A DNA stretch of 64,000 nucleotides from Methylomonas montana (GTDB taxonomy: Bacteria; Pseudomonadota; Gammaproteobacteria; Methylococcales; Methylomonadaceae): contig NZ_CP129884.1 of the NCBI RefSeq assembly GCF_030490285.1, positions 3,720,001 through 3,784,000 on the forward strand, written 5' to 3'. This document shows, piece after piece, positions 2,539 to 43,526 of this stretch. Both the position numbers and the translations under genes were made by a program. The stretch's first letter is position 1. Each line of letters opens with the position of its first letter. The notes beneath the pieces were generated by a model. That model had not been told where the DNA came from. It saw only the letters and a program-made list of their open reading frames with translations, and did not search any database.

Positions 2539-2546
2539 ACCACTCA

Positions 2547-3632: not shown

Positions 3633-3638
3633 GAACGA

Positions 3639-4939: not shown

Positions 4940-4942
4940 AGC

Positions 4943-6325
4943 CTACTTGCACTTCAAATGGTACTTCTGCACCCGGTAGCGCAGGGTTTCCCTGGTGGTA
5001 CCCAACATTCTGGCCGCGGCCGTGACGTTTTCGTCGGTGCGGTTCAAGACTTCCTGAATCAGATACTTCTCCATATCCTGCAAGCTCAAGCTGCCGTCCA
5101 ACGGCAGGAAGATGCCGTTCTCGCTGTGTTGTGCGGCCGGCTTCGCCGACACATTGGGTAGCTGTAGCCACTGTTCGGGAAAATCGTCGTCGTACGCCAA
5201 CAATACGCAACGCTCCAACACATTGCGCAATTCGCGGACGTTCCCCGGCCAGTCGTAGCGTTTTAATAGCTCCCAGGTCTGCCGGGAAATGTTTCTGACG
5301 TTTTTCGCGGATTTTCGATTGCTCTCAGCAATAAACATCGGCACCAACTCGTCCAGGTCCTCTTTATGCTCCCGAAGAGCCGGCACCCGCAAACTCATCA
5401 CGTTCAGCCGGTGATACAAATCGCTACGAAATAAACCTTGTTCCACCTTTTGCACCAAATCCAGATTAGTCGCCGCGATAATCTGCACATCGATGGCAAA
5501 CTCGGCCTCGCTACCCAAGCGGCGAATCCGTAAATCTTCTACGGCCGTCAACAGCTTGGCTTGCAACTCCAAATCCATCTCGCCGATTTCATCAAGAAAC
5601 AAGGTGCCGGTGTGGGCTTGCTCGAACAGGCCGCGATGCCGTTTCTTGGCGCCGGTAAATGCCCCGGCTTCGTAACCGAACAACTCCGATTCCAATAGTT
5701 CTCGCGGCAGTGCCGCGCAATTGATTTCAATCAGCGGCGCCCTGGAACGACTACCGCTGGCATGCAAAATACGGGCGACCAAACCTTTGCCGGTGCCGGT
5801 CTCGCCGGAAATAATCAGACTGGAAAACGGCACCCTGGCCATCTGCGCCACCATACTGCGCAGCCTGGTGGCGACGGGACTGCTGCCGATCAAGGCATCG
5901 ACCGTGTAACGTTTGCTCTGCACTTCGGTCTGCTGCTGCAGACGGCGCTGGGCCCTGGCACTACGCGCCGCACCTTCCACCAGCAGATTCAAGCGTTCCA
6001 GCTCGCAGGGCTTTTCGACGAAATCGTAAGCACCCAGCCGTACCGCTCTGACCGAATCGGCGACACTGCCGTAACCGGTCAGAAACACCCATTCGCTGCT
6101 GCCGATTTGATCCTTGGTTCTCTCAAGTAAATCCAAGGCGTTACCGTCGGGCAAATTCATATCCGACAACACCACCAAAGGATCGATCACTTGACTCAGC
6201 AAATGCCGCTCGGCTTGTTGCAGGGTTTCCGTGACCGTTACTTCCCAGTTTTTTTTTCGAAAAAACCGGGCCAGCTCGGAACCGAGCAATGCTTCGTCTT
6301 CAATAATCAGCAGGGTATCGGGCAT
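4943..6325 (-). CDS. sigma-54-dependent response regulator (NtrC family)
   Basis: A 460-residue three-domain activator. Residues 1-120 form a receiver (acidic IIEDE, phospho-acceptor Asp in VVLSDMNLPDG, Lys in VEKP). Next is an AAA+ sigma-54 interaction domain with Walker A (ISGETGTGKG), the sigma-54 contact loop GAFTGA, and Walker B (LFLDEIGEMD). The C-terminus is a Fis-type helix-turn-helix (NVTAAARMLGTTRETLRYRV). It should activate sigma-54 promoters when phosphorylated. It is the last gene of a three-gene operon with a histidine kinase and a cation transporter, with only 7 bp to the transporter gene. The target promoters are unknown. Confidence 0.92.
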   Translation of the reverse strand: MPDTLLIIEDEALLGSELARFFRKKNWEVTVTETLQQAERHLLSQVIDPLVVLSDMNLPDGNALDLLERTKDQIGSSEWVFLTGYGSVADSVRAVRLGAYDFVEKPCELERLNLLVEGAARSARAQRRLQQQTEVQSKRYTVDALIGSSPVATRLRSMVAQMARVPFSSLIISGETGTGKGLVARILHASGSRSRAPLIEINCAALPRELLESELFGYEAGAFTGAKKRHRGLFEQAHTGTLFLDEIGEMDLELQAKLLTAVEDLRIRRLGSEAEFAIDVQIIAATNLDLVQKVEQGLFRSDLYHRLNVMSLRVPALREHKEDLDELVPMFIAESNRKSAKNVRNISRQTWELLKRYDWPGNVRELRNVLERCVLLAYDDDFPEQWLQLPNVSAKPAAQHSENGIFLPLDGSLSLQDMEKYLIQEVLNRTDENVTAAARMLGTTRETLRYRVQKYHLKCK

Positions 6326-6332
6326 ATGAGTT

Positions 6333-7274
6333 TCAGTGCTCCCAAGACGCTAAGTCTTCGATTGGTTCAAGATGAGTGTCGATATCGATGTTGTCGAACT
6401 TATCCATGATTTGCCGCTCCATGCTTTCCAGCAAATCGTGGCCTTGCTGTACCGTCCAACTACCCGGCACCAGCACATGCACCGACATAAACCGCCGGGC
6501 ACCGGCATAGCGGGTACGCAAGGCATGGTAGGCAATACCGTCGCTGACCACAAACTGTTCCAATACCGCGACGATTTCGGCGATTTCCTCGGCCGACAAT
6601 GCCGCGTCCAGCAAACCGGCCACGGTACGCCGGATCAATTGCAGCCCGGCCCAGACGATATGCAGCGCCACGCCGATGGCGATGATGGGATCGAGAATTT
6701 CCCAGCCGTTCAGGCCCAATTGTTTGGCAAACGCTAAAGTCGCTTCGAAACGATTCGCCACCGAAATGACCGCGATGCCGATCAAAATACCGACCGTGGT
6801 CCAAACATCAGTCATCAGATGCTTGCCGTCGGCTTCCAGCGTAATCGATTGCCGGCGCCGGCCGACTCCGATCAAAATGCGGGCGACGAATAAATTAATC
6901 AGCGAGGCGAACACCGAAACCGCAATCCCCAGATCCAGCTGATGCAATAGCTGCGGGTGCCACAAGCGTTCCCAAGCCGCGTAAGCGATGCTGAAAGCCG
7001 CCAGCAAGATCATGATGCCTTCGGCGCCGCTGGAAAAATATTCAACCTTCTCATGGCCGTAAGCATGGGTATCGTCTGGCGGCCGCGCGGAAATGGTCAG
7101 CACTATCAACATGATGACTGCCGCCACCAGATTAATCAGCGATTCCAAGGCATCGGACAACAGGCCGACTGAGCCGGTCAGCAAATAGGCATAGCTTTTC
7201 AGAGCGATGGTGCTGACGGCCGCCATGATGGACAGCCAACCGTATAATGTGAGGGATTTTTGTGGGCTACTCAT
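6333..7274 (-). CDS. cation diffusion facilitator family transporter
   Basis: A 313-residue inner-membrane protein of the CDF/ZT family, which exports divalent metals (Zn, Fe, Mn, Co) by proton antiport. There are about six membrane segments. Metal-site residues are visible as LLSDALESLINL in TM2 and HLMTDVWTTVG in TM5 (HxxxD), followed by a cytoplasmic metal-binding C-terminal domain (HALRTRYAGARRFMSVHVLVPG, DTHLEP). The TM2 motif reads DALES instead of the common HxxxD-type entry, which affects metal choice but cannot be translated into a specific ion. It sits between its operon partners, a sensor kinase and a sigma-54 activator. Confidence 0.92.
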   Translation of the reverse strand: MSSPQKSLTLYGWLSIMAAVSTIALKSYAYLLTGSVGLLSDALESLINLVAAVIMLIVLTISARPPDDTHAYGHEKVEYFSSGAEGIMILLAAFSIAYAAWERLWHPQLLHQLDLGIAVSVFASLINLFVARILIGVGRRRQSITLEADGKHLMTDVWTTVGILIGIAVISVANRFEATLAFAKQLGLNGWEILDPIIAIGVALHIVWAGLQLIRRTVAGLLDAALSAEEIAEIVAVLEQFVVSDGIAYHALRTRYAGARRFMSVHVLVPGSWTVQQGHDLLESMERQIMDKFDNIDIDTHLEPIEDLASWEH

Positions 7275-7346
7275 AAGGCTTGGTAAGCGCTTGAAAGGGC
7301 CGATAGTCTAACAGACTCGCTAGCCCAAAATCCGGCCTGCCACAAT

Positions 7347-8771
7347 TTATGCCACCGGAAAGGTCAATGTCACACTGGCATGGCCTTGCGCGTCGTTTTG
7401 CAGTTGCATCCGGCCTTGATGATCCTTAACGAAACGCTGCACCATTGCCAATCCCAGCCCGCTGCCACCGTCTTTCAGGCTGACGAAAGGCCTGATGCCG
7501 TGTTGCAGAAAAGCCTCGCTAAAGCCCGGTCCGCTATCGCTAATCGTCAATTCCAAGCGGCCGTTTTCGGCAATCGCCGTAACATTGACCTCGCCGCTAT
7601 CGTGGCCAATGGCCTGTAGCGAATTCAGCAGCAAATTCAGCAACACTTGCCGAAACTCGCTTTCCGGCAAAAACACATATAAATCCTCGGCCACATGATC
7701 GTTAAAAACGATATTTTCGCGGGCCTGATATTTCAACAACATTAATAATTCTGCCAACACTTGGCGCACGGCGATCCTTTGTGAGGATTCGCCGTTGCTG
7801 CGAGCCGAAGCCAGCAGATCGTTGAGATTACGCGTCAAGCGCTGTACTTCCCGATAAACCAACTGCATGCGTTCGGCAAGTTCGGCATCCTGACACTCCG
7901 ACAGCATATTCTCCAAAGCCAACTGAATGCTGGCCAGCGGATTGCGCAACTCGTGCGCGGTGCTGGCGGCCAGTTCCGCCAACGCCGCCAACTTTTCCGC
8001 CCTGGCCAGTTGCTGGCTACGCTCCAGCAGCGCGTGACTGGTCTGCCTGACCCGATATTCCAACAGGGCGGTATGCTCCAGATGCTCCTGCTCCAGCTCC
8101 AGCAAGCGGGACACCAAATGGTTATAACGGTCGAACAAGGCATGCATCAACGGGTCGGATGTGTCGTGCGCAATCGGCTTCATCTCGCCCTCGGCCAGCC
8201 CGGACAACAGCTCTTTTAACGAATCCAGCGGTTCCAGCACATTGGTCCGGAAGAAATAACGCACGATCCACAACAACAGCAAGGGCAGGATAACCGCCAA
8301 TTGCATCTCCAACTGGCCGTCGTCTTCAATGTTGATCAACAGCCGTTCTTCCTCCTGCGCCTGCTGATCCAGCACCTCCCTAATCAATTGCAAAGCCTTG
8401 ACCAGATTGGCCTGGTCGCCTTGCACGGCCTTAGCGAACACTTCCTGCAATTGTTGCAAGTTGGCCGGTATCGAACGGTTGTAGTCCTGCAAACTGCCGA
8501 TCAGCTGAGCTTGAATCTCCGCCAACTGGATTTTTTCCGACTCGGTCACCTGTTGATTGGTGGAAATGGTCAATTGCAGTTGCAGCAACTCGAACAACGT
8601 ATCTTCCAGATGATGACCGCGGCCGATGTCGCGTTCTATGGTGTGGATCCGTTGGTCGTTGACCCAAGTCAATCGGCCTATCGCCAACAGTTCGCCGATC
8701 ACCAGTAAACCCAACACAAGGCTGACGAAAATAACCGGGCGAAACAGCAACTGGCGCATGGTGGGATACAT
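7347..8771 (-). CDS. membrane sensor histidine kinase
   Basis: A 474-residue kinase with an N-terminal membrane segment (FVSLVLGLLVIGELLAIG), a helical periplasmic sensor of about 130 residues, a second membrane segment (LAVILPLLLLWIVRYFF), a HAMP linker, a HisKA domain with H-box STAHELRNPLASI and a HATPase domain with N, G1 (DSGPGF) and G2 (GGSGLGLAMV) boxes. It is the first gene of the operon and the obvious partner of the sigma-54 response regulator two genes downstream. The periplasmic region is rich in Gln and Glu and shows no metal-binding His or Cys cluster, so the stimulus cannot be named. Confidence 0.92.
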   Translation of the reverse strand: MYPTMRQLLFRPVIFVSLVLGLLVIGELLAIGRLTWVNDQRIHTIERDIGRGHHLEDTLFELLQLQLTISTNQQVTESEKIQLAEIQAQLIGSLQDYNRSIPANLQQLQEVFAKAVQGDQANLVKALQLIREVLDQQAQEEERLLINIEDDGQLEMQLAVILPLLLLWIVRYFFRTNVLEPLDSLKELLSGLAEGEMKPIAHDTSDPLMHALFDRYNHLVSRLLELEQEHLEHTALLEYRVRQTSHALLERSQQLARAEKLAALAELAASTAHELRNPLASIQLALENMLSECQDAELAERMQLVYREVQRLTRNLNDLLASARSNGESSQRIAVRQVLAELLMLLKYQARENIVFNDHVAEDLYVFLPESEFRQVLLNLLLNSLQAIGHDSGEVNVTAIAENGRLELTISDSGPGFSEAFLQHGIRPFVSLKDGGSGLGLAMVQRFVKDHQGRMQLQNDAQGHASVTLTFPVA

Positions 8772-8950
8772 AGTTAAACCAGAATAGTTAATGAAATTAT
8801 GACGAAAATATTATCTCTCACCACCGATTCCTTTTGGTTAATATAAGCCTAGTGACGCCACGTTTTCATTTCAGTGCCCTTACACTCCCTTAAGCCTTAC
8901 AACATGGAAACAAACCTAGCCAAAGCATGGTTTAAACCCAAAGGACTCCC

Positions 8951-10255
8951 TTGAATCCCAACTTTTCCATCCATCCGAACAACTTCAACTCCTTGATGTT
9001 GTTTGGCTTGAGCCTAGTCAATTATGCCTTGCTGTATTGGGCCAATATTTTGTTGGCTCGTCATCTGACTATCGATGCTTTTGACGATTTCAGCGTGGCA
9101 ACTTCCGTCATCGCTTTGCTATCGACCCTGGCCACCTTGGGACTGGAAAAATATGCCCTGCGTCAGATTGCTTTGTGTATAGAGCGCGAAAACTGGCCCA
9201 GGCTGCGCGGCTTCTGGGTGTTTTCGTTGCGTACCATCCTGTTGTTCAGCCTATTCTTGATGGGCTTGCTCAGCGTAGGCCTAGAAGCCTTTCTAGCCTG
9301 GCAAAATGCCGATTTGCACATTGCCATAGTAATTTATGCCGGCTTTCTGCCAGTGATTGCGCTGTGTCTGTTCTTGATCGAAGTCATTACCGTATTCGGT
9401 GCGCAAATTCTCTCCCTGGTCTTGTATCGTTTTTTCCTGCCCGCCGTATTTTTACTGCTGTTGCTCAGTTTAAGCGACTTTCAAATCGAACTAACGGCGG
9501 TTTCCGCGGTACTTTGTTTTGGTACCGCTTGGTGTCTGACATTGATATTGATGATAGTAACGGCACGAGCCGCCAGTCCCAGAGGACTGCATCGGATTGA
9601 CGCCGATCTGAAACGTAAAAGCCGATGGCTAAAAAAGTCACTGCCGTTAATGATCAGCAGTTTGATGATGACCATGCTGACCAACGGCGGCACTATCATT
9701 CTGGAAATTCTCCATCCATCCGAAGCCGTGGTGGGCATTTATGCAATCGCCATGCAAACCACGGCGTTGATTTCATTGATAGGCACCTCGACCAATCGCT
9801 ATTATCTACCTATGCTGGTGGTTTTGCTGGAGCGCCGCGATCAGGTTGGCATCAAAGCCCTGCAAGTTAAACGCATGCGCCTGATTGCCGCCTTTGTCGG
9901 GGCTTTTCTGGGCATCATCGGTCTATGGGGCCAGGAAATACTCTATCTGTTCGGCGCCACCTTTGCGAGCGGTTATACAGCTTTACTCATCAGCGCGATT
10001 GGCGCAGCGTTTTGTACCTTGTTTTCCGATTCGCCCTACTATCTCCAGTTCATGGGACGCAATCGTCTGGTAGTTGGGTTGATCACGTTAGCCGCTATCG
10101 GCATGATCGGCCTGAGTTTTATTTTTGGCTTTCTCTACGGCGCCAGCGGGGTTGCAATCGCTTACACATTGCCAACCATATTGCTGTTCGCCAGCCTGAA
10201 GTGGCTGGCCTATCGGCATATGCGCAAGCTATTCGCCGTTAATGCTCAAGCGTGA
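8951..10255 (+). CDS. polysaccharide flippase (Wzx/MATE-like)
   Basis: A 434-residue, very hydrophobic protein with about 12 membrane segments and the overall pattern of the MOP superfamily (polysaccharide biosynthesis/O-antigen flippases): an early NILLARHLT-type segment, paired charged helices and internal pseudo-symmetry. The start is a TTG at 8951 preceded by AAAGGA with five-base spacing; no better ATG exists. It stands alone with no glycosyltransferases nearby, so the lipid-linked glycan substrate is unknown. Its 3' end overlaps the converging choice-of-anchor I gene by 17 bp. Confidence 0.8.
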   Translation: MNPNFSIHPNNFNSLMLFGLSLVNYALLYWANILLARHLTIDAFDDFSVATSVIALLSTLATLGLEKYALRQIALCIERENWPRLRGFWVFSLRTILLFSLFLMGLLSVGLEAFLAWQNADLHIAIVIYAGFLPVIALCLFLIEVITVFGAQILSLVLYRFFLPAVFLLLLLSLSDFQIELTAVSAVLCFGTAWCLTLILMIVTARAASPRGLHRIDADLKRKSRWLKKSLPLMISSLMMTMLTNGGTIILEILHPSEAVVGIYAIAMQTTALISLIGTSTNRYYLPMLVVLLERRDQVGIKALQVKRMRLIAAFVGAFLGIIGLWGQEILYLFGATFASGYTALLISAIGAAFCTLFSDSPYYLQFMGRNRLVVGLITLAAIGMIGLSFIFGFLYGASGVAIAYTLPTILLFASLKWLAYRHMRKLFAVNAQA

Positions 10256-30306: not shown

Positions 30307-30783
30307 TTATTCATCCCATCCTTCGTCAGCCATCTCTGCAAAACGGCTGTTATCTTTAGCGGTTTTTTGTTTAAAAATGCGTTCCAGCAACGGCGATAGG
30401 GTCCCGGTCATTTCCTGTTGCAACTCGGTAATGATTTCTTCAATGTCGGGGCCGCCTTTAACGATGACAGGATGAGCGCCCAATTTGATCAACTCATTGG
30501 TTGCAGTGCCACCGACAGAACCGCAATAAACCAGTTCGCAGCCCGTTAACCAGGCAAGTTTGGGTTTTAGTTTGTCGTCATTTCCGTCGCGTTGTTCTTT
30601 AGCAAACGACTTGGCAGCCAAAGGCGTAGCGGAACTGCCATCAATAGCGTAGACATGAAACCCCAAAGATGACCCGAAATGCTGATTGACCATTTCTCCA
30701 TCTGAACTCGCAAAAGCAACGATCAGCTTATCTACATCGACTTCAAGCTCCGCAACACTATTTACATCAGCAATTTGATTCAT
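30307..30783 (-). CDS. NifX/NifB-like molybdenum-iron cofactor binding protein
   Basis: A 158-residue protein of the dinitrogenase iron-molybdenum cofactor family (NifX, NafY and the C-terminus of NifB), which carries FeMo-cofactor precursors. Diagnostic segments are VAFASSDGEMVNQHFGSSLGFHVY (in parts; the HFG motif is central) and ELVYCGSVGGTATNELIKLG followed by HPVIVKGG. The start at 30783 (MNQIADVNS) is set by GAGGAG upstream; an earlier in-frame start at 30840 is unsupported. It lies 32 kb from nifHD, next to two small unknown proteins. It may be NifX itself or a paralogue serving another step; sequence alone cannot decide. Confidence 0.8.
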   Translation of the reverse strand: MNQIADVNSVAELEVDVDKLIVAFASSDGEMVNQHFGSSLGFHVYAIDGSSATPLAAKSFAKEQRDGNDDKLKPKLAWLTGCELVYCGSVGGTATNELIKLGAHPVIVKGGPDIEEIITELQQEMTGTLSPLLERIFKQKTAKDNSRFAEMADEGWDE

Positions 30784-30918
30784 ATGACACTCCTCAATGA
30801 ATATTTGGGCCAAAGAACGATTAAGGCAAGGTCTTACCATCGATTGTCTTTGGCGTTGTTAATCCGCACCCTGCCGAATCCACTGGATACGGAGCCGGAT
30901 CGTTAAGTACAAAACGAG

Positions 30919-31236: not shown

Positions 31237-31538
31237 AAGCACCGTAAAATGATAAGCAAGCAAACACAGCATTGATTTCTGTAAAGCTCGTTTAATACAT
31301 ATTTTGCACCAATTCTTAAGTGATTGATTAATTGACAAAAAAGGCTGAGCTTATATGTTGCGTTTGTAACAAATAAGCACCTGTTGGAAGGTCGATGTTT
31401 GAATGGTAGCAGTTGCGCTTAATCAACTGTCGGAATTTTAGATTTGTTTCGCTTTTCGCGTTCATGAACCAAGTCACAGTTTGAAAACAGTGGCTTTGTT
31501 ATATACGATAAACAATTTTTTTGCCTTCTACTCTCCCG

Positions 31539-32099
31539 ATGATTCACGAAAAAACGTCATGCCACGGAGTTACACTTATCGAGTTGATGGTAACGATCAC
31601 TGTTGCAGCAATCGTCATGGGAGTGGCCGTTCCCAGCTTTATCGGAACGGTGCGAAGCAATCGTTTGACGACTTACGCTAATGATTGGGTATCCAGCCTC
31701 AATTATGCCCGTGCCGAAGCCATAAAACGCAGTTCACCGGTGTCAGTCCGGCGAAAAGGCACGACAAGTCAACAGTGGGAAGTGGGCTGGGATGTATTTG
31801 TCGATCTCAACGGTAATGGCGCATTTGACGATAACGGCAATAGTACGCTATGCGAGGCCACGGAAGATTGCCTATTAAAAACCTACGATGCATTGTCGAC
31901 GGGCTATACGCTACGGACAGGCAACAGCAGTTACAAGGACTATGCGACTTATTTGGCGGGAGGCTTAAGCAAGAATCAGGTTAGCGAAGTTTTTCGGCTT
32001 TGCGACAACACCCAAAATACCACTAACTCGCGGACAATTAGCGTCAATGCGGTTGGTCGCCCCAGCACTGCGGTGGGAAATGCCGCATCTTGCCCCTAA
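31539..32099 (+). CDS. fimT: type IV minor pilin, GspH/FimT type
   Basis: A 186-residue prepilin-like protein. The class III signal is SCHG followed by VTLIELMVTITVAAIVMG, with Gly at -1 and Glu at +5, as cleaved by PilD. The mature part (NDWVSSLNYARAEAIKRSSPVSV) has the conserved minor-pilin pattern of FimT/FimU, and a Cys pair near the C-terminus (LCEATEDCL) is present. The ATG at 31539 is used; an upstream TTG at 31521 is possible. It is the first gene of an operon through pilE that encodes the minor-pilin priming complex. Confidence 0.88.
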   Translation: MIHEKTSCHGVTLIELMVTITVAAIVMGVAVPSFIGTVRSNRLTTYANDWVSSLNYARAEAIKRSSPVSVRRKGTTSQQWEVGWDVFVDLNGNGAFDDNGNSTLCEATEDCLLKTYDALSTGYTLRTGNSSYKDYATYLAGGLSKNQVSEVFRLCDNTQNTTNSRTISVNAVGRPSTAVGNAASCP

Positions 32100-32105
32100 A
32101 GCCTC

Positions 32106-32564
32106 ATGAACAAAAACAAAGGATTTACTCTGATCGAAGTTTTGGTCGCCACCGTGGTATTGTCCATCGGTCTGCTCGGTTTGGCGGCACTTCAAACCAA
32201 CAATCTTAAAAACAACCAAAGCGCCTATTTTCGTAGCCAAGCCACCCAGCTTGCCTATGACATAGCCGACCGGATGCGAGCCAATGTCACGGCCAGCAAT
32301 AGTTATCTAAGCACCACCATGGCGGTGACTGCCGCGACGCAGCAGGCGGATTGCACTACAGTCAGCACGACCTGCACGCCGGCAAAAATGGCGCAAAACG
32401 ATCTGTATGAATTGAAAAGCGCGTTAGCGACTGCTTTGCCGGGAGGCACTGCGACGATCGCTAACGCCAGCGGGGTTTTTACCGTGACCGTCAATTGGGA
32501 CGACAACCACGACGGCGCCATCGACAACAGTGATCCGAATTTCCAGATGAGTTTTCAACTATGA
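32106..32564 (+). CDS. pilV: type IV minor pilin PilV
   Basis: A 152-residue prepilin with leader MNKNKG and the methylated Phe region FTLIEVLVATVVLSIGLLG. The continuation LAALQTNNLKNNQSAYFRSQ and AYDIADRMRAN is characteristic of PilV. It is part of the priming complex at the pilus tip. It begins six bases after fimT and its end overlaps pilW by four bases (ATGA), so the genes are translated in tandem. Confidence 0.92.
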   Translation: MNKNKGFTLIEVLVATVVLSIGLLGLAALQTNNLKNNQSAYFRSQATQLAYDIADRMRANVTASNSYLSTTMAVTAATQQADCTTVSTTCTPAKMAQNDLYELKSALATALPGGTATIANASGVFTVTVNWDDNHDGAIDNSDPNFQMSFQL

Positions 32565-33625
32565 GAGAGGTGTTAGTAGTGGGTCATAAAACACCACTAG
32601 GCCGGCAATCGGGAATGACCCTGGTGGAAATCATGATCGCCCTGTTGATTGGCGCATTTTTGCTCGGTGGCGTTTTGCAGATTTTTATCAACAGCCGGCA
32701 AACTTATCGAATGCAGGAAAATCTCTCCAGGCTCCAGGAAAACGGCCGATTCGCCATGGAGTTCATCAGCAGGGATTTGCGCATGGCGGGCTATCTGGGA
32801 TGCGCATCACTCGGCGCGGTGACCCCAGCTATCGATGCTTCTCCGCAAAACCCTAATCCAAACCCGGCGGTGAATCCCTTTACCAATTTGAACGCTATCG
32901 TCGGCAATAACAACATCGCCAATAGCTGGAATGCCAATGCCTGTTCCGGAACCCATCAATGCATCGCCAATACCGATGCGGTAACCATCCAGTATGCCGA
33001 CAGTTGCGGCGGATACCTAACCGGGAATATGGCATCCGACAACGCCAACATTCAAATTCCCGCCAACAACACTTGCAACATCAGTCAATATGACACGCTG
33101 CTACTTTCTGATTGCAGCTCAGCGGACGTGTTTGTCGCGACCAGCGCCTCTTCCGGAGCCGGAAAGCAAACTATCGCTCACGCCAATAACCAGAACACCA
33201 GCCCCAAACTGAGCAAAGTATACGGAGCCGATGCGGAAATCTTCGTGTTTCGCTCATACAGCTATTTTATTCGTACCGGCGCTTCAGGAATGCCGGCGCT
33301 GTGGCGATTGGATAATGCCAAGGCCGTCGCCAGCAGCTCAAATCCGATGGAATTGCTGGAAGACATCGAAGACTTTCAAATTCTCTATGGGGAAGATACC
33401 AATGCCGATGGCACAGCCAATTACTATGTGCCTGCCAATAGCGTGGTTAACGTTGGGAATGTGATCAGCATACGCATCAGCGTGCTGGTTGCCACACACG
33501 ACGATAATCTGGCCTCGCAGCCACTTGCCTATACCTTCAATGGCACCACGACCACCCCAGTCGATCGACGCCTGAGAAGAGTTTTCACCTCAACGTTAGC
33601 CGTGCGCAACCGGCTGAATTCATAG
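32561..33625 (+). CDS. pilW: type IV minor pilin PilW
   Basis: A 354-residue protein with an 18-residue leader ending QSG before MTLVEIMIALLIGAFLLGG. It then shows the PilW pattern RQTYRMQENLSRLQENGRFA and FISRDLRMAGYLGC. Several Cys in the middle (ACSGTHQC, DSCGGY, NTC) suggest disulphides. PilW links PilY1 to the pilus tip. It overlaps pilV by four bases. Confidence 0.92.
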   Translation: MREVLVVGHKTPLGRQSGMTLVEIMIALLIGAFLLGGVLQIFINSRQTYRMQENLSRLQENGRFAMEFISRDLRMAGYLGCASLGAVTPAIDASPQNPNPNPAVNPFTNLNAIVGNNNIANSWNANACSGTHQCIANTDAVTIQYADSCGGYLTGNMASDNANIQIPANNTCNISQYDTLLLSDCSSADVFVATSASSGAGKQTIAHANNQNTSPKLSKVYGADAEIFVFRSYSYFIRTGASGMPALWRLDNAKAVASSSNPMELLEDIEDFQILYGEDTNADGTANYYVPANSVVNVGNVISIRISVLVATHDDNLASQPLAYTFNGTTTTPVDRRLRRVFTSTLAVRNRLNS

Positions 33626-33638
33626 CGAGGGAATAAAT

Positions 33639-34205
33639 ATGTTTGATCAATGCCTGAGCGTTCACCGCGGATCATTCTCGACGCCAAATCGGCAAGCCGG
33701 CGTGGTACTGGCCGTCAGCCTGATCATGTTACTGCTGTTGACGCTGATCGGCGTCACTGGAGCTAGAGTCACCGGTCTGGATGAAAAAATGGCCGGCAAT
33801 ATGCGGGATCGAAACCTGGCTTTTCAGGCAGCGGAATCGGCGTTAAACGCCGGCGAAACGGCTGCCGCAGCCACGACCATTTCAGCTTGCCCTGCCAATC
33901 CTGCTAATCCTACAGGTTTTTATCAATCACGCGATGCCAATTGCGACGGCGTACCGGAAACCACGCCGATATGGAACAGTGTCAATTGGAATACGCAATC
34001 GGTACTTTATAGCGGGACCTTGGCCGATATCAGCACTAACCCGCGTTATATTGTCGAAGACATGGGGCTTACCTGCGTGTCGCCCACGACGCCATGTCCG
34101 GCTGCCGACCAACGCCGTAATTTTCGCATCACTGCCCGCGCAACGGGTGGCACGGCCGATTCGGTGGTGATGTTGCAGTCCATTTATCAAGTCGATGTAC
34201 CCTGA
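33639..34205 (+). CDS. pilX: type IV pilus assembly protein PilX
   Basis: A 188-residue protein with leader NRQAG before VVLAVSLIMLLLLTLIGVTG; Glu5 is replaced, as is usual in PilX. The hallmark segment DEKMAGNMRDRNLAFQAAES is present. It is part of the tip complex with PilV, PilW and PilY1. GAGGG lies nine bases upstream of the ATG. Confidence 0.9.
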   Translation: MFDQCLSVHRGSFSTPNRQAGVVLAVSLIMLLLLTLIGVTGARVTGLDEKMAGNMRDRNLAFQAAESALNAGETAAAATTISACPANPANPTGFYQSRDANCDGVPETTPIWNSVNWNTQSVLYSGTLADISTNPRYIVEDMGLTCVSPTTPCPAADQRRNFRITARATGGTADSVVMLQSIYQVDVP

Positions 34206-34250
34206 TGCTTGCCAAGGCATAGCATCCTCGTTTCTTCTCAGGGAGGCCAC

Positions 34251-37200
34251 ATGGCATTCAATCTTCACAAGTACCCTACAGCTCGTCGACTGGAAGCCAC
34301 ACTGGCGCTTTTTACCCTGTTCAGCGCCACGGTGAACGCTGATGTAGCCCAATTACCATTGTTTTTGACGAGTTCCGTCAAGCCCAACGTCATGTTGATG
34401 CTAGATAACTCGATGTCCATGGCGGAAACCCTGACGGTCAGCTCCTCGGGGGCGGATTACAACCCAGTGACGACTTATCCTACTGGCGCAAACTGTAGCA
34501 GCAATGCACTACCCAACAGCACCACCGGCACCCAAACCGATTCTTCCCTCAACACCAAAACCAAATGCCAGAATGCCGGCGGCTCTTGGAGTAGCAGTAA
34601 AAACCGCTGCACGGTGACAGTAACGACGCCGGTGACGTATGGCACCAGCATACCCAGCAAATTTTTTGGCTATAAGTCAGGCTATACCATCGGAACAAAA
34701 TGTTTTGCTTCCAACCTTTCGTATACCACTAGCCTTTCGTTGCCCGCGGACGTAACGACCGCCGCCCAGCGAGCCAATTATCTGAATTGGTACTACGGCA
34801 ACGAAATCGCCAAAGCCGGCACGACATCGACTCGTTTACAGGTTGCCAAAAACGCCGCGAATTTCCTGGTAGATTCTTTAACCAGCGATACCCGTCTAGG
34901 CTTTACGACCTTCAATGTCGATAACGGCGGCATGCTGTGGGAAGCGATTGACGATTTGGGGGACAGCAAGAAAACCAATATCAAAAACCGCATCAATGCC
35001 ACTAGCGCAAACGCCCACACGCCGTTGGCGGAAACCATGGCGGACATCGGTAATTATTTCACCACCGGCAGCAGCAACGTCGTCTTGAAAGCGGGCACCA
35101 GCAATGCATCCACGGCAAGCAAAACCAGTGCGCTACCGAGCGCCTTAGTCAACAGTACTGGCTGGTCTGGGCGCACTGCAATTTCCGGCGAACCCACGTT
35201 TTCCAGCAGTCCCATACAGCAAAGTTGCCAGCGGAATTTCGCGGTGCTGATTACCGACGGTTTGCCTTCTTCCGATCGAGATATATCGACCAACAGTTAT
35301 CTCAATGACTATGACGGAGACTGTTCGGGATCTCACAGCAATGAATGCACGACCTTCGATATGAAAAAGGCATATCCGTATCCCGGTGGTAACGGCGCAA
35401 CGCCAAACTTGTCAGTCGCCAATGCCGGTAGCAATTCCAGCGATTATCTCGATGATGTCACCCAAGCCCTGTATGAAATGGATTTACGGCCGGATTTGCG
35501 CAATGCGAATGAATCGAAAAAGGCCAAGAATAATTTGACCACCTTTGTCGTCGGCTTTGCGGATGACGCGATCAATCCCAACATGCCTGGGGTAAATCCG
35601 CTGCCTAGGGATGCGGCGCTACAAGGGGGAGGTAAATTTTATTTTGCCGGTAACGAAGCCGAATTGAGTGCCAGCTTAGCCAGCGCCTTCGGCTTTATAG
35701 CCGAACAAGCCAGTGCATCCTCGTCGGTTGCCACCAATTCCACGCAGTTTCAGACCGATACGCTTATATATCTGGCCGTATTCGACAGCAGCGACTGGAG
35801 CGGTAACTTACAGGCTTTCAGAATCCTCACCGAAGACCTTAACGGCAATAAGGTACTCGATCCGGGCGAGGACACCAATAGCAATGGCAAACTCGATGCC
35901 GGGGCGATCGGGTCCAAAATTTGGAATGCTGAGGCGCTGATACCGAGTCCCGCCAATCGAGACATTTTTTCTTACGATCCTTCGGCGACAACCGGCAAGG
36001 GTATTCCCTTTATTTGGACCAGCCTAAATACCAGCCAGCAGAACATACTGGGCAGCCAAGCTGTAGTCGACTATTTGAGAGGCGATCAAACCCTGGAACA
36101 GAGCAATGGAGGCACCTTTAAAAACCGCAGCAATATCCTGGGGGATATCGTCAACTCCGATCCTCTTTTCGTGGGTAGGGACGATGCCGGATATGCGACT
36201 TTGCCCGGTAGCGAAGGCTCCAGTTATGGCAGCTTCGTAAGCACCACACGCCGTCAGATGATCTATGTCGGCGCCAACGACGGCATGTTGCACGGCTTTG
36301 ATGCCAGCACCGGCATCGATGGCGGCAAAGAGCTCTTTGCCTATGTTCCCAATTCGGTGATAAGCAGCAATTTAGTCACGCTAACCAACCCAACTTATAG
36401 CCACCACTATTTTGTTGACGGCTCTGCGCAAAGCAGTGACGTGTTCTACGGCAGCGCCTGGCATACCGTATTGGTGGGCAGTTTGGGTGGAGGAGGCAAA
36501 GGTGTTTTTGCTCTTGACATCACCGATCCGGATACCTTCGGCGACAGCAATGTACTTTGGGAATTTTCTAGCACCAACGATGCCGATCTGGGCTACACGT
36601 TACCGCAGGCCAGCGTGGTGCGTATGGCTAACGGTCAATGGGCGGCAATTGTTGCTAACGGTTATAACAGTTTGGTCGGCAAGGCCGTGCTGTTTATCAT
36701 CAACATCGAAACCGGCGCCTTGATCAAGAAAATAGAAGCAGAAACCGCAAGCGGGACTAACGGTTTATCTAGCCCGGTTGCTGTCGATAGCGATAATGAC
36801 AAAATAGTGGATTACATCTATGCCGGCGATCTGAACGGAAATTTGTGGAAATTCGATGTCAGCAGCAGTGACACCGCCAATTGGGGAGTCGCATACGCCG
36901 GCTTACCCGTTTTCGTCGCCGAAGATAGCCTTGCCGCGACGCAGCCAATTACCGCTAAGCCGGCAGTGGGCAAGGCGACGGCTAACGGACAGACCAGCGG
37001 CGTGATGATTTATGTTGGTACAGGAAAATATTTCGAGACGGGTGATAATGTAGTACCAACCACACCGCAAGTACAAAGTTTTTACGCCATATGGGATCAG
37101 TGCGATAAATCCAGTGCAGTCGGTTGTAACGGCGTCGTATCGGGCCGCACATCGCTTCAGCAGCAGAGCATTATCGCCGAAACCAGTAGTCCGACACTGG

Positions 37201-37766
37201 CCGACGGCGCCACCGCCAATAGCGATGTACGCATAACCTCACATTGCGAAGTAGGCTATGGCTCCACGGTGCCAACCACAACCGGAGCCCCTTGCACCAA
37301 CAACGTGAATAGACGCGGCTGGTATATGGATTTGGTTTCACCGGTTGCCGGATTGCAGGGCGAAAAGGTCGTAAGCATGCCCATCTTGCGACATGGCGTC
37401 GTAATCTTTCCCACCTTGATACCAAACACCAATGTTTGCACAGCGGGGGGAACGAGTTGGCTGATGGAGTTGGATCAATTGTCCGGGGCACGCTTGGCAG
37501 GCACGCCCATCGATTTAAATGGTGACGGCAAAGTCGATGCCAATGACATGGTGATGATAAATGGTATCGCCGTTGCCGCTTCTGGGGTCAAATCTCAGGT
37601 CGGTATTGTCGATACGCCGGCCGTGATCAATTGTGAAAATGGCATAGATTGCAAATACACCAGCGGCAGCAGCGCCAATCTCTGGCTGGTCAAGGAAAAA
37701 GCGCCCGAAAGCGTAAACCCCACGTTGCTCCCAGCCAGACGGCAATCCTGGCGTCAACTCTTATGA
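34251..37766 (+). CDS. pilY1: type IV pilus tip adhesin PilY1
   Basis: A large (1171-residue) exported protein. After a signal peptide (TLALFTLFSATVNA), the N-terminal half has a von Willebrand A-like region (VMLMLDNSMSM, VLITDGLPSSD). The C-terminal half is the PilY1 beta-propeller (GDIVNSDPLFVG, MIYVGANDGMLHGFDAS, YADLNGNLWKFD-like blades). Calcium loops occur at EDTNSNGKLDAG and DLNGDGKVDANDM. PilY1 sits at the pilus tip, promotes adhesion and extension, and can signal surface contact. The start at ATG 34251 has GGGAGG upstream; a TTG at 34209 lacks a site. It is next to last in the operon. Confidence 0.93.
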   Translation: MAFNLHKYPTARRLEATLALFTLFSATVNADVAQLPLFLTSSVKPNVMLMLDNSMSMAETLTVSSSGADYNPVTTYPTGANCSSNALPNSTTGTQTDSSLNTKTKCQNAGGSWSSSKNRCTVTVTTPVTYGTSIPSKFFGYKSGYTIGTKCFASNLSYTTSLSLPADVTTAAQRANYLNWYYGNEIAKAGTTSTRLQVAKNAANFLVDSLTSDTRLGFTTFNVDNGGMLWEAIDDLGDSKKTNIKNRINATSANAHTPLAETMADIGNYFTTGSSNVVLKAGTSNASTASKTSALPSALVNSTGWSGRTAISGEPTFSSSPIQQSCQRNFAVLITDGLPSSDRDISTNSYLNDYDGDCSGSHSNECTTFDMKKAYPYPGGNGATPNLSVANAGSNSSDYLDDVTQALYEMDLRPDLRNANESKKAKNNLTTFVVGFADDAINPNMPGVNPLPRDAALQGGGKFYFAGNEAELSASLASAFGFIAEQASASSSVATNSTQFQTDTLIYLAVFDSSDWSGNLQAFRILTEDLNGNKVLDPGEDTNSNGKLDAGAIGSKIWNAEALIPSPANRDIFSYDPSATTGKGIPFIWTSLNTSQQNILGSQAVVDYLRGDQTLEQSNGGTFKNRSNILGDIVNSDPLFVGRDDAGYATLPGSEGSSYGSFVSTTRRQMIYVGANDGMLHGFDASTGIDGGKELFAYVPNSVISSNLVTLTNPTYSHHYFVDGSAQSSDVFYGSAWHTVLVGSLGGGGKGVFALDITDPDTFGDSNVLWEFSSTNDADLGYTLPQASVVRMANGQWAAIVANGYNSLVGKAVLFIINIETGALIKKIEAETASGTNGLSSPVAVDSDNDKIVDYIYAGDLNGNLWKFDVSSSDTANWGVAYAGLPVFVAEDSLAATQPITAKPAVGKATANGQTSGVMIYVGTGKYFETGDNVVPTTPQVQSFYAIWDQCDKSSAVGCNGVVSGRTSLQQQSIIAETSSPTLADGATANSDVRITSHCEVGYGSTVPTTTGAPCTNNVNRRGWYMDLVSPVAGLQGEKVVSMPILRHGVVIFPTLIPNTNVCTAGGTSWLMELDQLSGARLAGTPIDLNGDGKVDANDMVMINGIAVAASGVKSQVGIVDTPAVINCENGIDCKYTSGSSANLWLVKEKAPESVNPTLLPARRQSWRQLL

Positions 37767-37791
37767 TGTATAGGCAAAGGATCAATCATTA

Positions 37792-38244
37792 ATGAATAAA
37801 CAACAGGCATTCACTTTAGTTGAGTTGATGGTGACCGTGGCGATTGTCGGTATTCTTGCCGCTATCGCCATTCCCAACTACCAAGAATCTGTCAAGAAAT
37901 CGCGGCGAGCCGACGCCGAAGGTGCGCTGTTGGGCTTGGCCAACGCCATGGAAAGACGCTTTACGGAAGCCAATAGCTATTGCGATGCCGGAGGCGCGGA
38001 TGGCGCCAATAGTTGTGGCGCAGCAGGCACCAATGATACCGGCTCGCCATCGATTTATCCTGCTCAGAGCCCTGCGTCAGGGAACGCCGCCTATGCCTTG
38101 ACCATTAGCGCGGTCACCGCAAATACCTACACATTGTTGGCCACGCCAACCGGCGCGCAGGCGAATGACAAATGCGGAACATTGACGCTTACTAATACGG
38201 GGGTAAAAGGTGTATCCTCAGCATCCGTAGCGGAATGCTGGTAG
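37792..38244 (+). CDS. pilE: type IV pilin PilE
   Basis: A 150-residue pilin with leader MNKQQA and FTLVELMVTVAIVGILAAIA, whose Phe+1 and Glu+5 are intact, followed by a globular domain with C-terminal Cys pairs (NSYCD, DKCGTLTL, AECW). The IPNYQESVKKSRRADAEGAL segment is typical of PilE/pilin of the minor-pilin locus. Whether it is the major or a minor pilin cannot be decided from this window. It ends the operon, 25 bp after pilY1. Confidence 0.9.
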   Translation: MNKQQAFTLVELMVTVAIVGILAAIAIPNYQESVKKSRRADAEGALLGLANAMERRFTEANSYCDAGGADGANSCGAAGTNDTGSPSIYPAQSPASGNAAYALTISAVTANTYTLLATPTGAQANDKCGTLTLTNTGVKGVSSASVAECW

Positions 38245-39507: not shown

Positions 39508-41670
39508 TCACACGCAAAACTTAAACATTTCCTTCCAATGCTGATTGAACGCCATATCGGAATTCAAAATATGCCGAGTCCATTTATCGATAAAGCTGGT
39601 CACTTCGCCGGCATTCCAGGTGCCTTGTTGGATTTTGTTATCCATTGCCAACAGCTTTTCCAGCATCAGATTGTGTTCCTTGACATGGTTTTTGTAGTGA
39701 TGAAATCCAACTTGTTTCATGAAAGCTTCTTCTTCGCCGAAATGGACTTTGACGTGTTGGTACAAGTCGAACATGGTATCGGTCATGGCTTCCTTACTTT
39801 CGGCGGCCAGCAGTTTTGCAGCCAGCACAAAAAAATCCTTGTGCTGTTCATCGATTTTTTCATCGCCCAACGCGTAACTTTCCTGCCAGGCAAAATGTAC
39901 CAGACTGCCAGGCTGCGGCGATTTCAGAATGGCTAATTGCCGGTGTTTGGCGATATTGTCGGGGGTTTTAACCTGGGCTTTTTTGAAAACAAAACATTGC
40001 CGGGCCAGATGATAGGCGTCGTTTCCGTAGAAATTGACATACATTTGGGTCAGCTCGAATCGCCGGTAGCTTGCCAGCGGCTTGGCGGCCTCGTCTTCAC
40101 AACGCGTCTCGGCTTTTTCGTTCAACAGAGCCGTTAATTCGGCTTGAGTGGTGAGATAGCTGCCGACCAAATGTTTAACTTGCGCGGTGAAAATCGCGTG
40201 TTGCCTGTCCAAAACCTTATCGACCAAACCGATTCTCCAGGCTTTCTTGGCGCTGATCGGCAGCCTCTGTTCCGTCAGTTGATTGGCCATGGACAGTCCG
40301 ACCCGCTTAGGCAGCAGATAGGTCCAATACTCAGAACCGTATAGCTCGCCCATGTTTTTATAATGCGCATTAAAAATCACACCGTCCCTGACCAGTACCT
40401 TATCCGGTGCGATCGCCAATATCGCTCCGCCCGCGCCGGCGCTGCCGGACAGCGCAGCAACGGTCAATTTATCCAGCGTAGTGACGATTTGATAAATCAG
40501 GTCGTCGATGGCGTTGATGTTTTGCCAGGATTCCTCGGCGGGATTATCGGCGACTTCGATATGGTTGAGATGAATGCCGTTGGACCAACAGTCCTCGCCG
40601 CCCATCAGCACGATGACTTTCACATCCAGAGTCGCAACATGCCGATAGACGAACAGCAGCAATCTGCATTGCGCGGTACTCATGCCGCCGTTGTGAAAAG
40701 CAAAATGGATATAAGCCGCTTTGCCTTCGATTTCGAACCAGACTTCCTGACAGGCCAATTGCCGGCCGGGCTTGGTATGATCGATGTCGATAATCTTTAA
40801 GGTTTTGCCAAATAAGCCGTGCAAGCCGTTGACCGGTTTGGGCAGCCAGTCTTGCAGCGCCAGCGCGGCGGGTAATTTGATGCCATTGCCATCCGGCAAT
40901 TTAGCTTTCAGATGACCGATCCACACCGCACCGTCTATCGTTGCCCGACAGATGGCCTGATTGGCGATAGCAACGATCTCACCGGGCTTGCCGCGTAATT
41001 GCTCTGCTCGCTGCGCGTTGTAGAGATAAAAGGCCTGGCCGTAAATCTGGTCTAACACGCCGGGCGTACCGTCCGCCGCCCGTATTCGCTGCAATATCTG
41101 CTCGGTACTGTGCTTTTTCCAATCAATAGCGCGATCCGCTTGTTTTATCTGCGGCCGCAATTGGCCCGTCACATCCGGCCGCATGTAATCCAGCCGCTCC
41201 GGCTGGAAATGGGGCGCATCGAAATAACTCAACGCTTCCCAGAGGCAATCGACCGCCGCCTGGGTGACTTCACGATTGAAGATGCTGCTTTTGGTCGCGG
41301 CACGGAGCGGAAAGGTCTTGCTGGCCCAAATCGCGCCGCTATCCATCTCGTCATCCGCTTGCAGCAAAGTCACACCCCAGTCGTCCAAGCCCGATTGAAT
41401 GGCCCAATCCAACGACGAAGGACCGCGATCGCCCTTGATACCGGGATGGACGATCAAACATCGATAGTTTTGGTAAATCGCTTTAGGTAGCCGCCGGGTT
41501 AAAAATGGACAGAGAATCAGATTCGGCTTGAACAGTTCGACGCCTTCTAACAACTTGGTTTCATCGCCCAAATGCAACTCCACGGACACCGTATAGCCGG
41601 CGTCTTCGAGCTCCGTGTAATAGCGTTGGGTTAGCCCTGAAAATGCGGTTGATATGAGTAAAATACGCAT
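39508..41670 (-). CDS. hoxX: HoxX-type maturase fused to a bacteriohaemerythrin domain
   Basis: A 720-residue three-part protein. Residues 1-270 are the formyltransferase-like half of HoxX (HPGIKGDRGPSSLDW at 75-89). Residues about 290-550 are an enoyl-CoA hydratase-like half (ALSGSAGAGGAILAIAPDK, FNAHYKNMGELYGSEYWTYL in parts). HoxX makes CO from formyl-CoA for the [NiFe]-hydrogenase active site under oxic conditions. Residues 588-720 are a bacteriohaemerythrin domain with all seven di-iron ligands: His610, His643, Glu647, His662, His666, His700 and Asp705. HoxX proteins usually end after the hydratase half (about 560 residues), so the tail is an extra domain. GGAGG precedes the ATG. No hydrogenase gene is nearby. 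Confidence 0.88.
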   Translation of the reverse strand: MRILLISTAFSGLTQRYYTELEDAGYTVSVELHLGDETKLLEGVELFKPNLILCPFLTRRLPKAIYQNYRCLIVHPGIKGDRGPSSLDWAIQSGLDDWGVTLLQADDEMDSGAIWASKTFPLRAATKSSIFNREVTQAAVDCLWEALSYFDAPHFQPERLDYMRPDVTGQLRPQIKQADRAIDWKKHSTEQILQRIRAADGTPGVLDQIYGQAFYLYNAQRAEQLRGKPGEIVAIANQAICRATIDGAVWIGHLKAKLPDGNGIKLPAALALQDWLPKPVNGLHGLFGKTLKIIDIDHTKPGRQLACQEVWFEIEGKAAYIHFAFHNGGMSTAQCRLLLFVYRHVATLDVKVIVLMGGEDCWSNGIHLNHIEVADNPAEESWQNINAIDDLIYQIVTTLDKLTVAALSGSAGAGGAILAIAPDKVLVRDGVIFNAHYKNMGELYGSEYWTYLLPKRVGLSMANQLTEQRLPISAKKAWRIGLVDKVLDRQHAIFTAQVKHLVGSYLTTQAELTALLNEKAETRCEDEAAKPLASYRRFELTQMYVNFYGNDAYHLARQCFVFKKAQVKTPDNIAKHRQLAILKSPQPGSLVHFAWQESYALGDEKIDEQHKDFFVLAAKLLAAESKEAMTDTMFDLYQHVKVHFGEEEAFMKQVGFHHYKNHVKEHNLMLEKLLAMDNKIQQGTWNAGEVTSFIDKWTRHILNSDMAFNQHWKEMFKFCV

Positions 41671-42861: not shown

Positions 42862-43464
42862 CTAAGCCGGATACAATCCTTGGGAACGCAATAGTTGCCG
42901 AAGCGACTCGAAACCATCGACCTGAAAACCTTTGATACCTAAACTTAGCGCAGTATCGACATTGGCCGCGCAGTCGTCGTAGAAATAAACCGCCGCCGGC
43001 TCGACACCGCACTTGTCCAGAGCCAGTAAAAACGCCTCCGGGTCGGGCTTGATAACGCCAAGTTGATGCGAAAACAAAGCCACATCGAAATCTGTGTCGA
43101 AATCGCCAAACCGTCCCCAGTGCAACGGATTCGAATTGCTCAAACAGGCTAGACGGTGATTTTTTCTAAGCTCGCGCAGGGTTTGCTTTGCGCCTGGAAA
43201 GAATGCTCTGGGCCACGACGCAAATTCCATCAAGAAAGCCGTTTCCGACAGATTAAGTTGCCACTCGGCAATAAATCGCTCGGCAAATTCCTCGGCTGTA
43301 ATTTCACCCAGCTCGAATAGCCTGACCGACGCTGAATACAGCCAGCGCCGTTTGATGGACGCATCATCGAGCGGCTCGGCTAGCAGACGATTCAGATTCT
43401 CGAATACCGTGCTTTCGATCAAGACGCCACCTAAATCGAACAATAACCACTCGGGAGCATTCAT
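42862..43464 (-). CDS. HAD-superfamily hydrolase
   Basis: A 200-residue phosphatase-like protein of the HAD-IA group. The first motif is FDLGGVLIE (nucleophile Asp), the second CLSNSN, and the third and fourth are KPDPEAFLLAL and FYDDCAANVDTALSLG. The DLGGV form of the first motif resembles YihX-type sugar-phosphate phosphatases. I use ATG 43464 (MNAPEWLLFDLG); an upstream in-frame ATG at 43491 is possible. The substrate is not predictable. Confidence 0.85.
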   Translation of the reverse strand: MNAPEWLLFDLGGVLIESTVFENLNRLLAEPLDDASIKRRWLYSASVRLFELGEITAEEFAERFIAEWQLNLSETAFLMEFASWPRAFFPGAKQTLRELRKNHRLACLSNSNPLHWGRFGDFDTDFDVALFSHQLGVIKPDPEAFLLALDKCGVEPAAVYFYDDCAANVDTALSLGIKGFQVDGFESLRQLLRSQGLYPA

Positions 43465-43526
43465 CCAACTCACTTTTAGCATTAGCGGCACGATAGTCCG
43501 GAATTTAGCGCCCGTTCGACGCCGCC

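Follow-up and report, generated by a model that had tools for sequence, protein, structure and literature searches.

A gene on the minus strand of a 64,000-nucleotide stretch of the Methylomonas montana genome (contig NZ_CP129884.1, positions 3,720,001 to 3,784,000; hereafter the window) encodes a 720-residue protein in which an enzyme of the HoxX/HypX family is fused to a C-terminal hemerythrin domain. The reading that we favor, tentatively and with roughly an even chance at best, is that the fusion is a carbon monoxide (CO) synthase of this family that stands outside any hydrogenase operon, that would be gated by oxygen (O2) via its hemerythrin tail, and whose CO would serve regulation or some other end unrelated to hydrogenase, the maturation of hydrogenases being a secondary use at most.

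The gene is a single open reading frame (ORF) with an ATG start and without internal stop codons. Pfam finds Formyl_trans_N (residues 38-146), Formyl_trans_C (174-256), ECH_1 (349-520) and Hemerythrin (603-705) in the protein, all above the curated cut-offs, and thereby bears out the initial annotation, which had read the gene as a HoxX maturase joined to a hemerythrin domain. The family layout, namely N- and C-terminal formyltransferase subdomains followed by a crotonase domain, is seen in both the Pfam and the PDB matches. HypX of Aquifex aeolicus (PDB 6j0p) matches residues 1-580 (E 1e-149), so that the HoxX part does not end at residue 550, as had been annotated, but runs to 580. In an AlphaFold2 model, a body with the HypX fold is followed by a linker with a predicted local distance difference test (pLDDT) score <50 (residues 580-599) and by a four-helix bundle (604-719); the linker is probably flexible, judging from this model, in which the active-site loop 438-447 also has a pLDDT <50. 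The catalytic residues proposed for Aquifex HypX are His74, Asp80, Asp109, Tyr416 and Glu426 (PMC6802093), and equivalents of all five are present in the fusion (Table 1) and intact in 90 of 93 HoxX rows, the exceptions being the loci L080, L103 and L133. A CO-forming active site is thus supported by homology, the formyltransferase half being predicted to transfer the formyl group of N10-formyl-tetrahydrofolate (formyl-THF) to coenzyme A (CoA) and the crotonase half to decarbonylate the resulting formyl-CoA.

The seven di-iron ligands that had been read in the tail (His610, His643, Glu647, His662, His666, His700 and Asp705) are all present at these positions, and residues 610-705 fit the bacteriohemerythrin pattern H...HxxxE...HxxxH...HxxxxD. 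In an alignment of 170 rows, some of which are the same protein from two sources, 143 cover the tail segment, and 142 of these keep all seven ligands (P0106 has Gln at 643). Model TIGR02481 (hemeryth_dom) matches residues 594-710 above its cut-off (7e-20), whereas the stricter bacteriohemerythrin model NF033749 stays below its own, with 68 bits against 84. When compared with the PDB, the tail alone retrieves bacteriohemerythrin 4xq1 and three of its kin (E 8e-5 to 9e-5). As the 50 rows of a VIA-align search with the whole model were filled by HypX and crotonases and contained no hemerythrin, the tail was folded and searched alone (single sequence, pLDDT 74), upon which the top 13 Foldseek rows were hemerythrins (best E 3e-3, prob 1.00, template modelling (TM) score 0.65). 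That the tail has an O2-linked role, as the initial annotation had suggested, is a reasonable inference.

The fusion is not a peculiarity of one strain. Of 7,999 scored hits, 7,917 were significant, and the best 120 of these, which are 97-63% identical to the query, include 118 proteins of 715-742 residues (the others have 654 and 634). The hemerythrin segment is therefore in frame, and with full-length relatives on many contigs a frame or assembly artefact at the joint is ruled out, as is a chance fusion by the occurrence in many genomes and genera. When proteins of comparable length were searched with only the tail as query, 40 matches were obtained, every one of them a HoxX-hemerythrin fusion. 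The closest named relatives are from Methylomonas methanica, and the fusion is conserved in Methylomonas, Methylobacter, Methylovulum, Crenothrix and Methylomarinum, the named carriers including M. methanica, Methylobacter psychrophilus, Crenothrix sp. D3, Methylovulum miyakonense and Methylomarinum vadi. The initial annotation had called for a survey of HoxX architectures across methanotrophs; in 151 relative genomes, whose membership in the Methylococcales was deduced from named records that have identical contigs, HoxX is found in 47 (remnants in genomes G066 and G133 left out) and the fusion in 26 of those, broken copies included.

The genomic setting of these genes sets them apart from the hydrogenase maturation (hyp) operons. 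Sixty HoxX loci from Methylococcales (6-19 kb each; the fusion locus L016, with only 205 bp upstream, was omitted) were compared with 40 loci from class and phylum draws, using HypB, HypD, HypE and the [NiFe]-hydrogenase subunits as markers of a hydrogenase locus; HypA, HypC and HypF were not used around HoxX. The markers for HypB, HypC, HypD, HypE and the subunits were first assigned by eye and then checked against NCBIfam. HypB, HypD, HypE or [NiFe]-subunit genes were found in 0/60 Methylococcales loci on either strand, whereas hyp genes lie beside HoxX in 32/40 loci outside the order, whether the same strand or either strand is counted (Fisher 5e-19, kinship ignored). A separate named set, the best 80 of 582 confirmed loci, contains 34 Methylococcales loci that partly overlap the 60 and were not summed with them; there, hyp linkage is seen in 0/34 Methylococcales loci vs. 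32/46 others on the same strand (33/46 on either strand, the additional one being L249). Routine membership in a hyp operon is ruled out by this comparison, and the annotation 'hydrogenase maturation protein HoxX' is by itself not evidence for hydrogenase maturation.

The phylogeny of HoxX points in the same direction. The main tree comprises 93 rows chosen from 176 usable ones, near-duplicates and broken copies being omitted, while a second tree of 71 rows omits nine long or odd-composition rows (L249 included) and 17 near-duplicates and adds four plasmid rows; both are quick trees with support from the Shimodaira-Hasegawa-like approximate likelihood ratio test (SH-aLRT) only and without an inferred root. 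In the 93-row tree, all 29 hyp-linked rows fall within one starred clade of 33 rows, which contains no Methylococcales row; four rows without hyp neighbors (L138, L151, L232 and L246) are nevertheless found inside it. Among 48 plasmid records of HoxX, the genes of Cupriavidus necator H16 and Rhizobium leguminosarum Vaf-108 lie directly after hypE in hyp operons, and both proteins join the hyp-linked clade in the 71-row tree (100, starred), with the fusion outside. No hyp gene is annotated in the Mycetohabitans and Acaryochloris plasmid HoxX regions that were inspected, according to PLSDB gene tables that are incomplete. The clade of the fusion, which is concentrated in methylotrophs, groups with HoxX of Methylobacterium (100, starred), and four of four Methylobacterium genomes tested lack HypD. 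Tail-less HoxX proteins (L086, L087 and L090) are nested inside the fusion clade, and the history of the tail on the tree takes three changes, e.g., one gain and two losses. The initial annotation had assigned the enzyme to synthesis of the CO that [NiFe]-hydrogenase carries as a ligand: the CO-forming site stands by homology, whereas the hydrogenase task is not supported, in view of the unlinked loci, the separate clade and the occurrence of HoxX in genomes without HypD (see below).

In place of hydrogenase genes, the fusion gene adjoins that of a transcriptional regulator, with matches to DJ-1_PfpI (1e-22) and HTH_18 (1e-21) in Pfam. Its longest ORF extends to position 43012 of the window, while the ATG at 42766 yields 341 residues, a usual length among its relatives; as the FtrA model scores 233 bits against an equivalog cut-off of 425, the protein is a member of the family rather than FtrA itself. 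With the regulator required on the same strand and ≤2 kb upstream, and with loci having ≥1.2 kb of upstream sequence regarded as testable, such a GlxA-type regulator precedes HoxX in 44/59 Methylococcales loci vs. 1/37 outside the order (L157; Fisher 3e-13, kinship ignored), a contrast to be read with the fact that the GlxA, MHYT and response-regulator markers were drawn from these same loci, so that detection favors the Methylococcales, although the thresholds were equal across the sets. The tail is present in 26/60 Methylococcales loci, 25 of which have the regulator. Neither this conserved neighbor nor the strand of the gene nor the breadth of conservation of the fusion had been given in the initial annotation. 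Because the gene adjoins a regulator and not hydrogenase genes, the CO may have a purpose other than, or additional to, the building of hydrogenase.

Table 1. Features of the fusion gene and its upstream neighbors (window positions; functional limits within the protein are predicted)
Feature	Position	Strand	Basis
HoxX-hemerythrin fusion gene	39508..41670, stop codon included	-	ORF; Pfam and NCBIfam domains; PDB HypX match; conserved fusion
Formyltransferase half, residues 1-270, with His75/Asp81/Asp110	40861..41670	-	Pfam; 6j0p alignment; residue conservation; limits by analogy with PMC6802093
Crotonase half, residues 296-570, with Tyr437/Glu447	39961..40785	-	
Linker (probably flexible), residues 580-599, after the HypX-type C-terminal tail	39874..39933	-	pLDDT <50 in the AlphaFold2 model
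Hemerythrin four-helix bundle, residues 600-720, with seven di-iron ligands	39511..39873	-	TIGR02481; ligand conservation; Foldseek of the tail
GlxA/FtrA-type transcriptional regulator, DJ-1/PfpI followed by AraC helix-turn-helix	41741..42766	-	Pfam; upstream of the fusion gene, separated from it by 70 bp
HAD-family hydrolase	42862..43491	-	Pfam; upstream of the regulator, same strand

Gas-sensor domains are also found around HoxX in sister lineages. A gene for an MHYT-PAS kinase lies downstream of HoxX in 8/60 Methylococcales loci vs. 0/40 outside the order, and none of the 60 loci combines the tail with an MHYT gene, so that the 26 loci with a tail are all without one. In the MHYT-type loci, HoxX is followed by a response-regulator-like protein (the Pfam match is below the cut-off in the one tested) and then by an MHYT-PAS-HisKA-HATPase kinase, and in several loci a CheY-like protein plus another kinase are encoded as well. 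Two Bacillaceae, Peribacillus huizhouensis and Bacillus aerolatus, have a gene for an MHYT-PAS-GGDEF-EAL protein 55 and 41 bp downstream of HoxX, respectively, and both genomes lack HypD; the two pairs are found at L229 (9736-12159) and L247 (2828-5326). At least three Met-His motifs are present in each of nine MHYT proteins near HoxX that were checked, and the MHYT domain of the repressor CoxC senses CO through copper (PMC11347149). As some tail-less sister HoxX genes are followed by MHYT kinases, gas sensing recurs around the enzyme.

From these observations the following mechanism can be proposed. As in HypX, the formyl group of formyl-THF would be moved to CoA and then decarbonylated to CO, which is expected from the family to which the protein belongs, while the di-iron site of the hemerythrin tail would bind O2. 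The tail, through its O2 or redox state, might then gate catalysis and set the CO output, as in the hemerythrin-diguanylate cyclase Bhr-DGC, where catalysis is redox-dependent and the hemerythrin domain controls the enzyme in cis (PMC9388753). A plausible gate is the C-terminal tail of the HypX part, as the linker starts just past it; in Aquifex HypX, this element hinders the swing of CoA that is needed for the exit of CO. In the least certain step, the resulting CO would serve a regulatory or other non-hydrogenase purpose, and a regulatory role is favored because gas-sensor domains recur, with hemerythrin in the protein and MHYT in the operon, and because HoxX is found in bacteria without HypD. 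A more general proposal is that those HoxX enzymes which are not encoded in hyp operons are CO synthases dedicated to gas signaling within bacterial cells, whose CO, made from formyl-THF, would be read by MHYT copper sensors, i.e., histidine kinases in methanotrophs and enzymes of cyclic di-GMP (c-di-GMP) turnover in Bacillaceae, and that the di-iron domain in the Methylomonas-Methylobacter lineage would turn O2 supply into a CO signal; this we consider conceivable yet doubtful.

The occurrence of HoxX without the hydrogenase maturation machinery extends beyond the Methylobacterium and Bacillaceae genomes. Within the Methylococcales, HoxX without HypD was found in the drafts G045 and G053, which are 99 and 100% complete and have no PF00374 matches ([NiFe] large subunit), as well as in G058 (a broken copy) and in the incomplete genomes G030 and G040, the latter having HypF and large-subunit matches. 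Outside the order the same holds for G782, G806, G629, G875 and G554, where hydrogenase subunits were not searched, and seven genomes (G045, G053 and these five) have neither HypD nor HypF above cut-off, while G227, G467 and G685, also HoxX carriers from outside the order, have both. Among the named HoxX genomes tested outside the order, 7/9 lack HypD. A divergent HoxX group with 41% identity (L153, L154 and L155) comes from G806, G629 and G782, respectively; in L155, HoxX lies after an alcohol-dehydrogenase-like gene, which is itself divergent from a LysR-like regulator gene, both named by our own reading.

Several findings nevertheless weigh against a CO synthase with a purpose apart from hydrogenase. 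The home genome, a single contig of 4.63 Mb, encodes a [NiFe]-hydrogenase with a large subunit at C1:3929340-3930929 (PF00374, E 9e-226), which is taken as group 1, plus a small subunit, and HypB, HypC, HypD, HypE and HypF at about C1:3913483-3921016, some 150 kb from the fusion gene, and no second HoxX was found in it; hence, maturation in trans is possible. Of the HypD-free genomes, G554 has a HoxX that falls inside the hyp clade, and HypD may therefore simply be missing from this draft. In L249 (Oceanirhabdus sp. W0125-5, 3610-9674), HoxX lies in divergent orientation beside the genes of a [NiFe]-hydrogenase, with a HypB-like gene among them, and since this HoxX shares a starred tree group with those of the two Bacillaceae, links to hydrogenase exist in that group, too. 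The upstream regulator is lacking in 16/60 Methylococcales loci. For the MHYT part of the argument, the Bacillaceae evidence consists of two loci, and of 397 genomes drawn from the order to which Peribacillus belongs, this HoxX was found solely in the one that had supplied the query, so that no further HoxX-MHYT pair came to light; the home genome of the fusion yielded no MHYT protein, beside the fusion or elsewhere, and thus no CO reader was identified there; and as MHYT domains have also been linked to nitric oxide (NO) responses (PMC11347149), the MHYT proteins beside HoxX may respond to a ligand other than CO.

A rival reading takes the fusion for an ordinary maturase acting in trans, which provides HypCD with CO under oxic conditions, whose tail switches the enzyme on with O2 or senses O2, and whose gene has moved out of the hyp operon to come under a GlxA-type regulator. 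HypX forms the CO used in maturing hydrogenase in the presence of O2 (PMC12134894), the fusion has the catalytic residues of HypX, and the home genome offers both a hydrogenase and no other HoxX to serve it. Among good genomes (≥90% complete, ≤5% contaminated), HypD is present in 25/25 with the fusion, broken copies included, vs. 78/104 without (p 0.004), and, within the genus, the large subunit (PF00374, E <1e-200) in 12/13 with HoxX vs. 9/18 without (p 0.02). However, both correlations weaken once the count is restricted to genomes no smaller than the smallest one with HoxX (≥3.3 Mb), where HypD is present in 25/25 with the fusion vs. 58/62 without (p 0.32), or in 42/45 with any HoxX vs. 41/42 without HoxX, and where the large-subunit association drops to p 0.16, so that the HoxX-HypD co-occurrence, seen at p 0.004-0.005, is not robust to genome size. 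HypD is, moreover, retained by 61/84 good Methylococcales genomes without HoxX, kin of the fusion persist in genomes without HypD, hyp genes are absent from the loci, and the fusion stands apart from the hyp-linked clade. We regard maturation in trans as a serious contender, though a less likely one than the reading favored above.

The concentration of the fusion clade in methylotrophs, including HypD-free Methylobacterium, would also suit a valve for one-carbon (C1) overflow, in which surplus formyl-THF is removed as CO and THF recovered, with the tail reporting on O2 supply, as methane oxidation needs O2; the substrate put forward for the enzyme is central among C1 carriers (PMC6802093). This would leave the neighboring MHYT kinases and MHYT-GGDEF-EAL proteins unexplained, as well as HoxX in the HypD-free Bacillaceae, G782 and G806, and HypX holds its CoA constitutively (PMC6802093), which would fit a low flux; we therefore consider such a valve unlikely. 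That the tail is a mere store or sink of O2, shielding the enzyme or its product without signaling, is highly improbable, despite the proposal of free bacteriohemerythrin as an O2 supplier in methanotrophs (PMC12607906), given that HypX works with O2 present and hardly needs shielding, that one di-iron site per enzyme would make a poor sink, and that tail-less members occur inside the fusion clade.

Further observations concern the HoxX loci and the surroundings of the fusion gene. Two extra copies of HoxX have altered catalytic positions, L103 (G045) with Lys and Asn in place of His75 and Asp110, and L080 (G077) with Glu in place of Asp81 and no upstream regulator, which suggests drifting paralogs. 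HoxX is broken or split in L085, L167, L168 and L169, in the Methylococcales genomes G049, G082, G039 and G058, each of which is ≥99% complete, and it thus seems dispensable in some lineages. An AAA_26 protein (dethiobiotin-synthetase-like by eye) comes after HoxX in six loci of the fusion clade (L077, L079, L081, L085, L086 and L087), and in L085-L087 it is followed by a multiheme cytochrome and a Tll0287-like protein. In L119 (G227; on the contig of the named locus L199, Gammaproteobacteria MAG MC-02; 2079-6945), a HoxX that is 60% identical and near the fusion clade precedes three genes on its own strand, whose products are a 2Fe-2S protein, a protein like pyridine-nucleotide-disulphide oxidoreductases or the sarcosine oxidase alpha subunit, and a glycine-oxidase-like flavoprotein (FAD), a set that resembles the hydrogen cyanide synthase HcnABC and would place a possible cyanide-forming enzyme or amino-acid oxidase beside the CO enzyme. 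In the window, the HAD-family hydrolase gene upstream of the regulator has no counterpart in the other 48 of 49 HoxX loci compared and is probably an incidental neighbor. On the opposite strand, the fusion gene is adjoined by a series of minor-pilin and PilY1-like genes for type IV pilus assembly (31521-38244, read by eye), and a protein with a dinitrogenase iron-molybdenum cofactor domain is encoded on the minus strand at 30307-30840 (Pfam), which suggests nitrogen-fixation genes nearby.

The HoxX-hemerythrin fusion is a new form within a known enzyme family, while a signaling role would be new in kind. The initial annotation knew of no described HoxX of this form, and, indeed, no paper describing the fusion or a hydrogenase-free function of HoxX was found in the open-licence PMC literature, although a supplementary list of 56 hemerythrin architectures in PMC4919030 may hold it; the main texts of PMC4919030 and PMC2556348 make no mention of enoyl, formyl or hydrogenase. 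Members of the fusion as such are, on the other hand, already held in databases, under the names 'hydrogenase maturation protein' or 'hemerythrin domain-containing protein'. A survey from 2010 includes a HypX tree, part of which it terms a 'group of hydrogenase maturation factors' (PMC2974642), hence the divergence of the family had already been noticed, and a 'HoxX-like' gene of Chromobacterium violaceum appears in expression tables (PMC4167859, PMC3927592). In a 2018 review, the role of CO made inside bacteria was described as unclear (PMC6195638), and the fusion lineage makes this question directly testable, with its conserved catalytic residues, its regulator, MHYT-type neighbors in sister lineages and some hosts without HypD. 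If true, a CO-signaling HoxX would give bacteria a counterpart, based on C1 metabolism, to signaling by heme oxygenase and CO. With the fusion, a further class of enzyme also joins the proteins that carry hemerythrin domains in methanotrophs, organisms whose handling of O2 is actively studied (PMC12607906).

Among the known systems, HypX of A. aeolicus (PDB 6J0P) and HoxX/HypX of C. necator and R. leguminosarum have no hemerythrin domain, unlike the fusion, which in turn shares neither the position after hypE nor the clade of the latter two. With bacteriohemerythrin 4XPX and the free bacteriohemerythrin (Bhr) of Methylomonas, the tail has the four-helix bundle and the seven ligands in common, being 25% identical to 4xpx and up to 46% identical to free hemerythrins in relatives from the genus. 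Free Bhr, however, is a carrier, whereas the hemerythrin described here is the C-terminal domain of an enzyme, and the fusion is not among the ten FJG1 homologs tabulated in that study (PMC12607906). MHYT domains like those of CoxC, an MHYT-LytTR repressor, are present in the kinases and GGDEF-EAL proteins whose genes come after HoxX in sister lineages, but CoxC governs CO oxidation genes and answers CO from the surroundings (PMC11347149), and the home genome of the fusion yielded no MHYT protein. In Bhr-DGC, a hemerythrin domain is likewise joined to an enzyme, yet that enzyme is a different one with c-di-GMP as its product, and the hemerythrin is N-terminal rather than C-terminal (PMC9388753).

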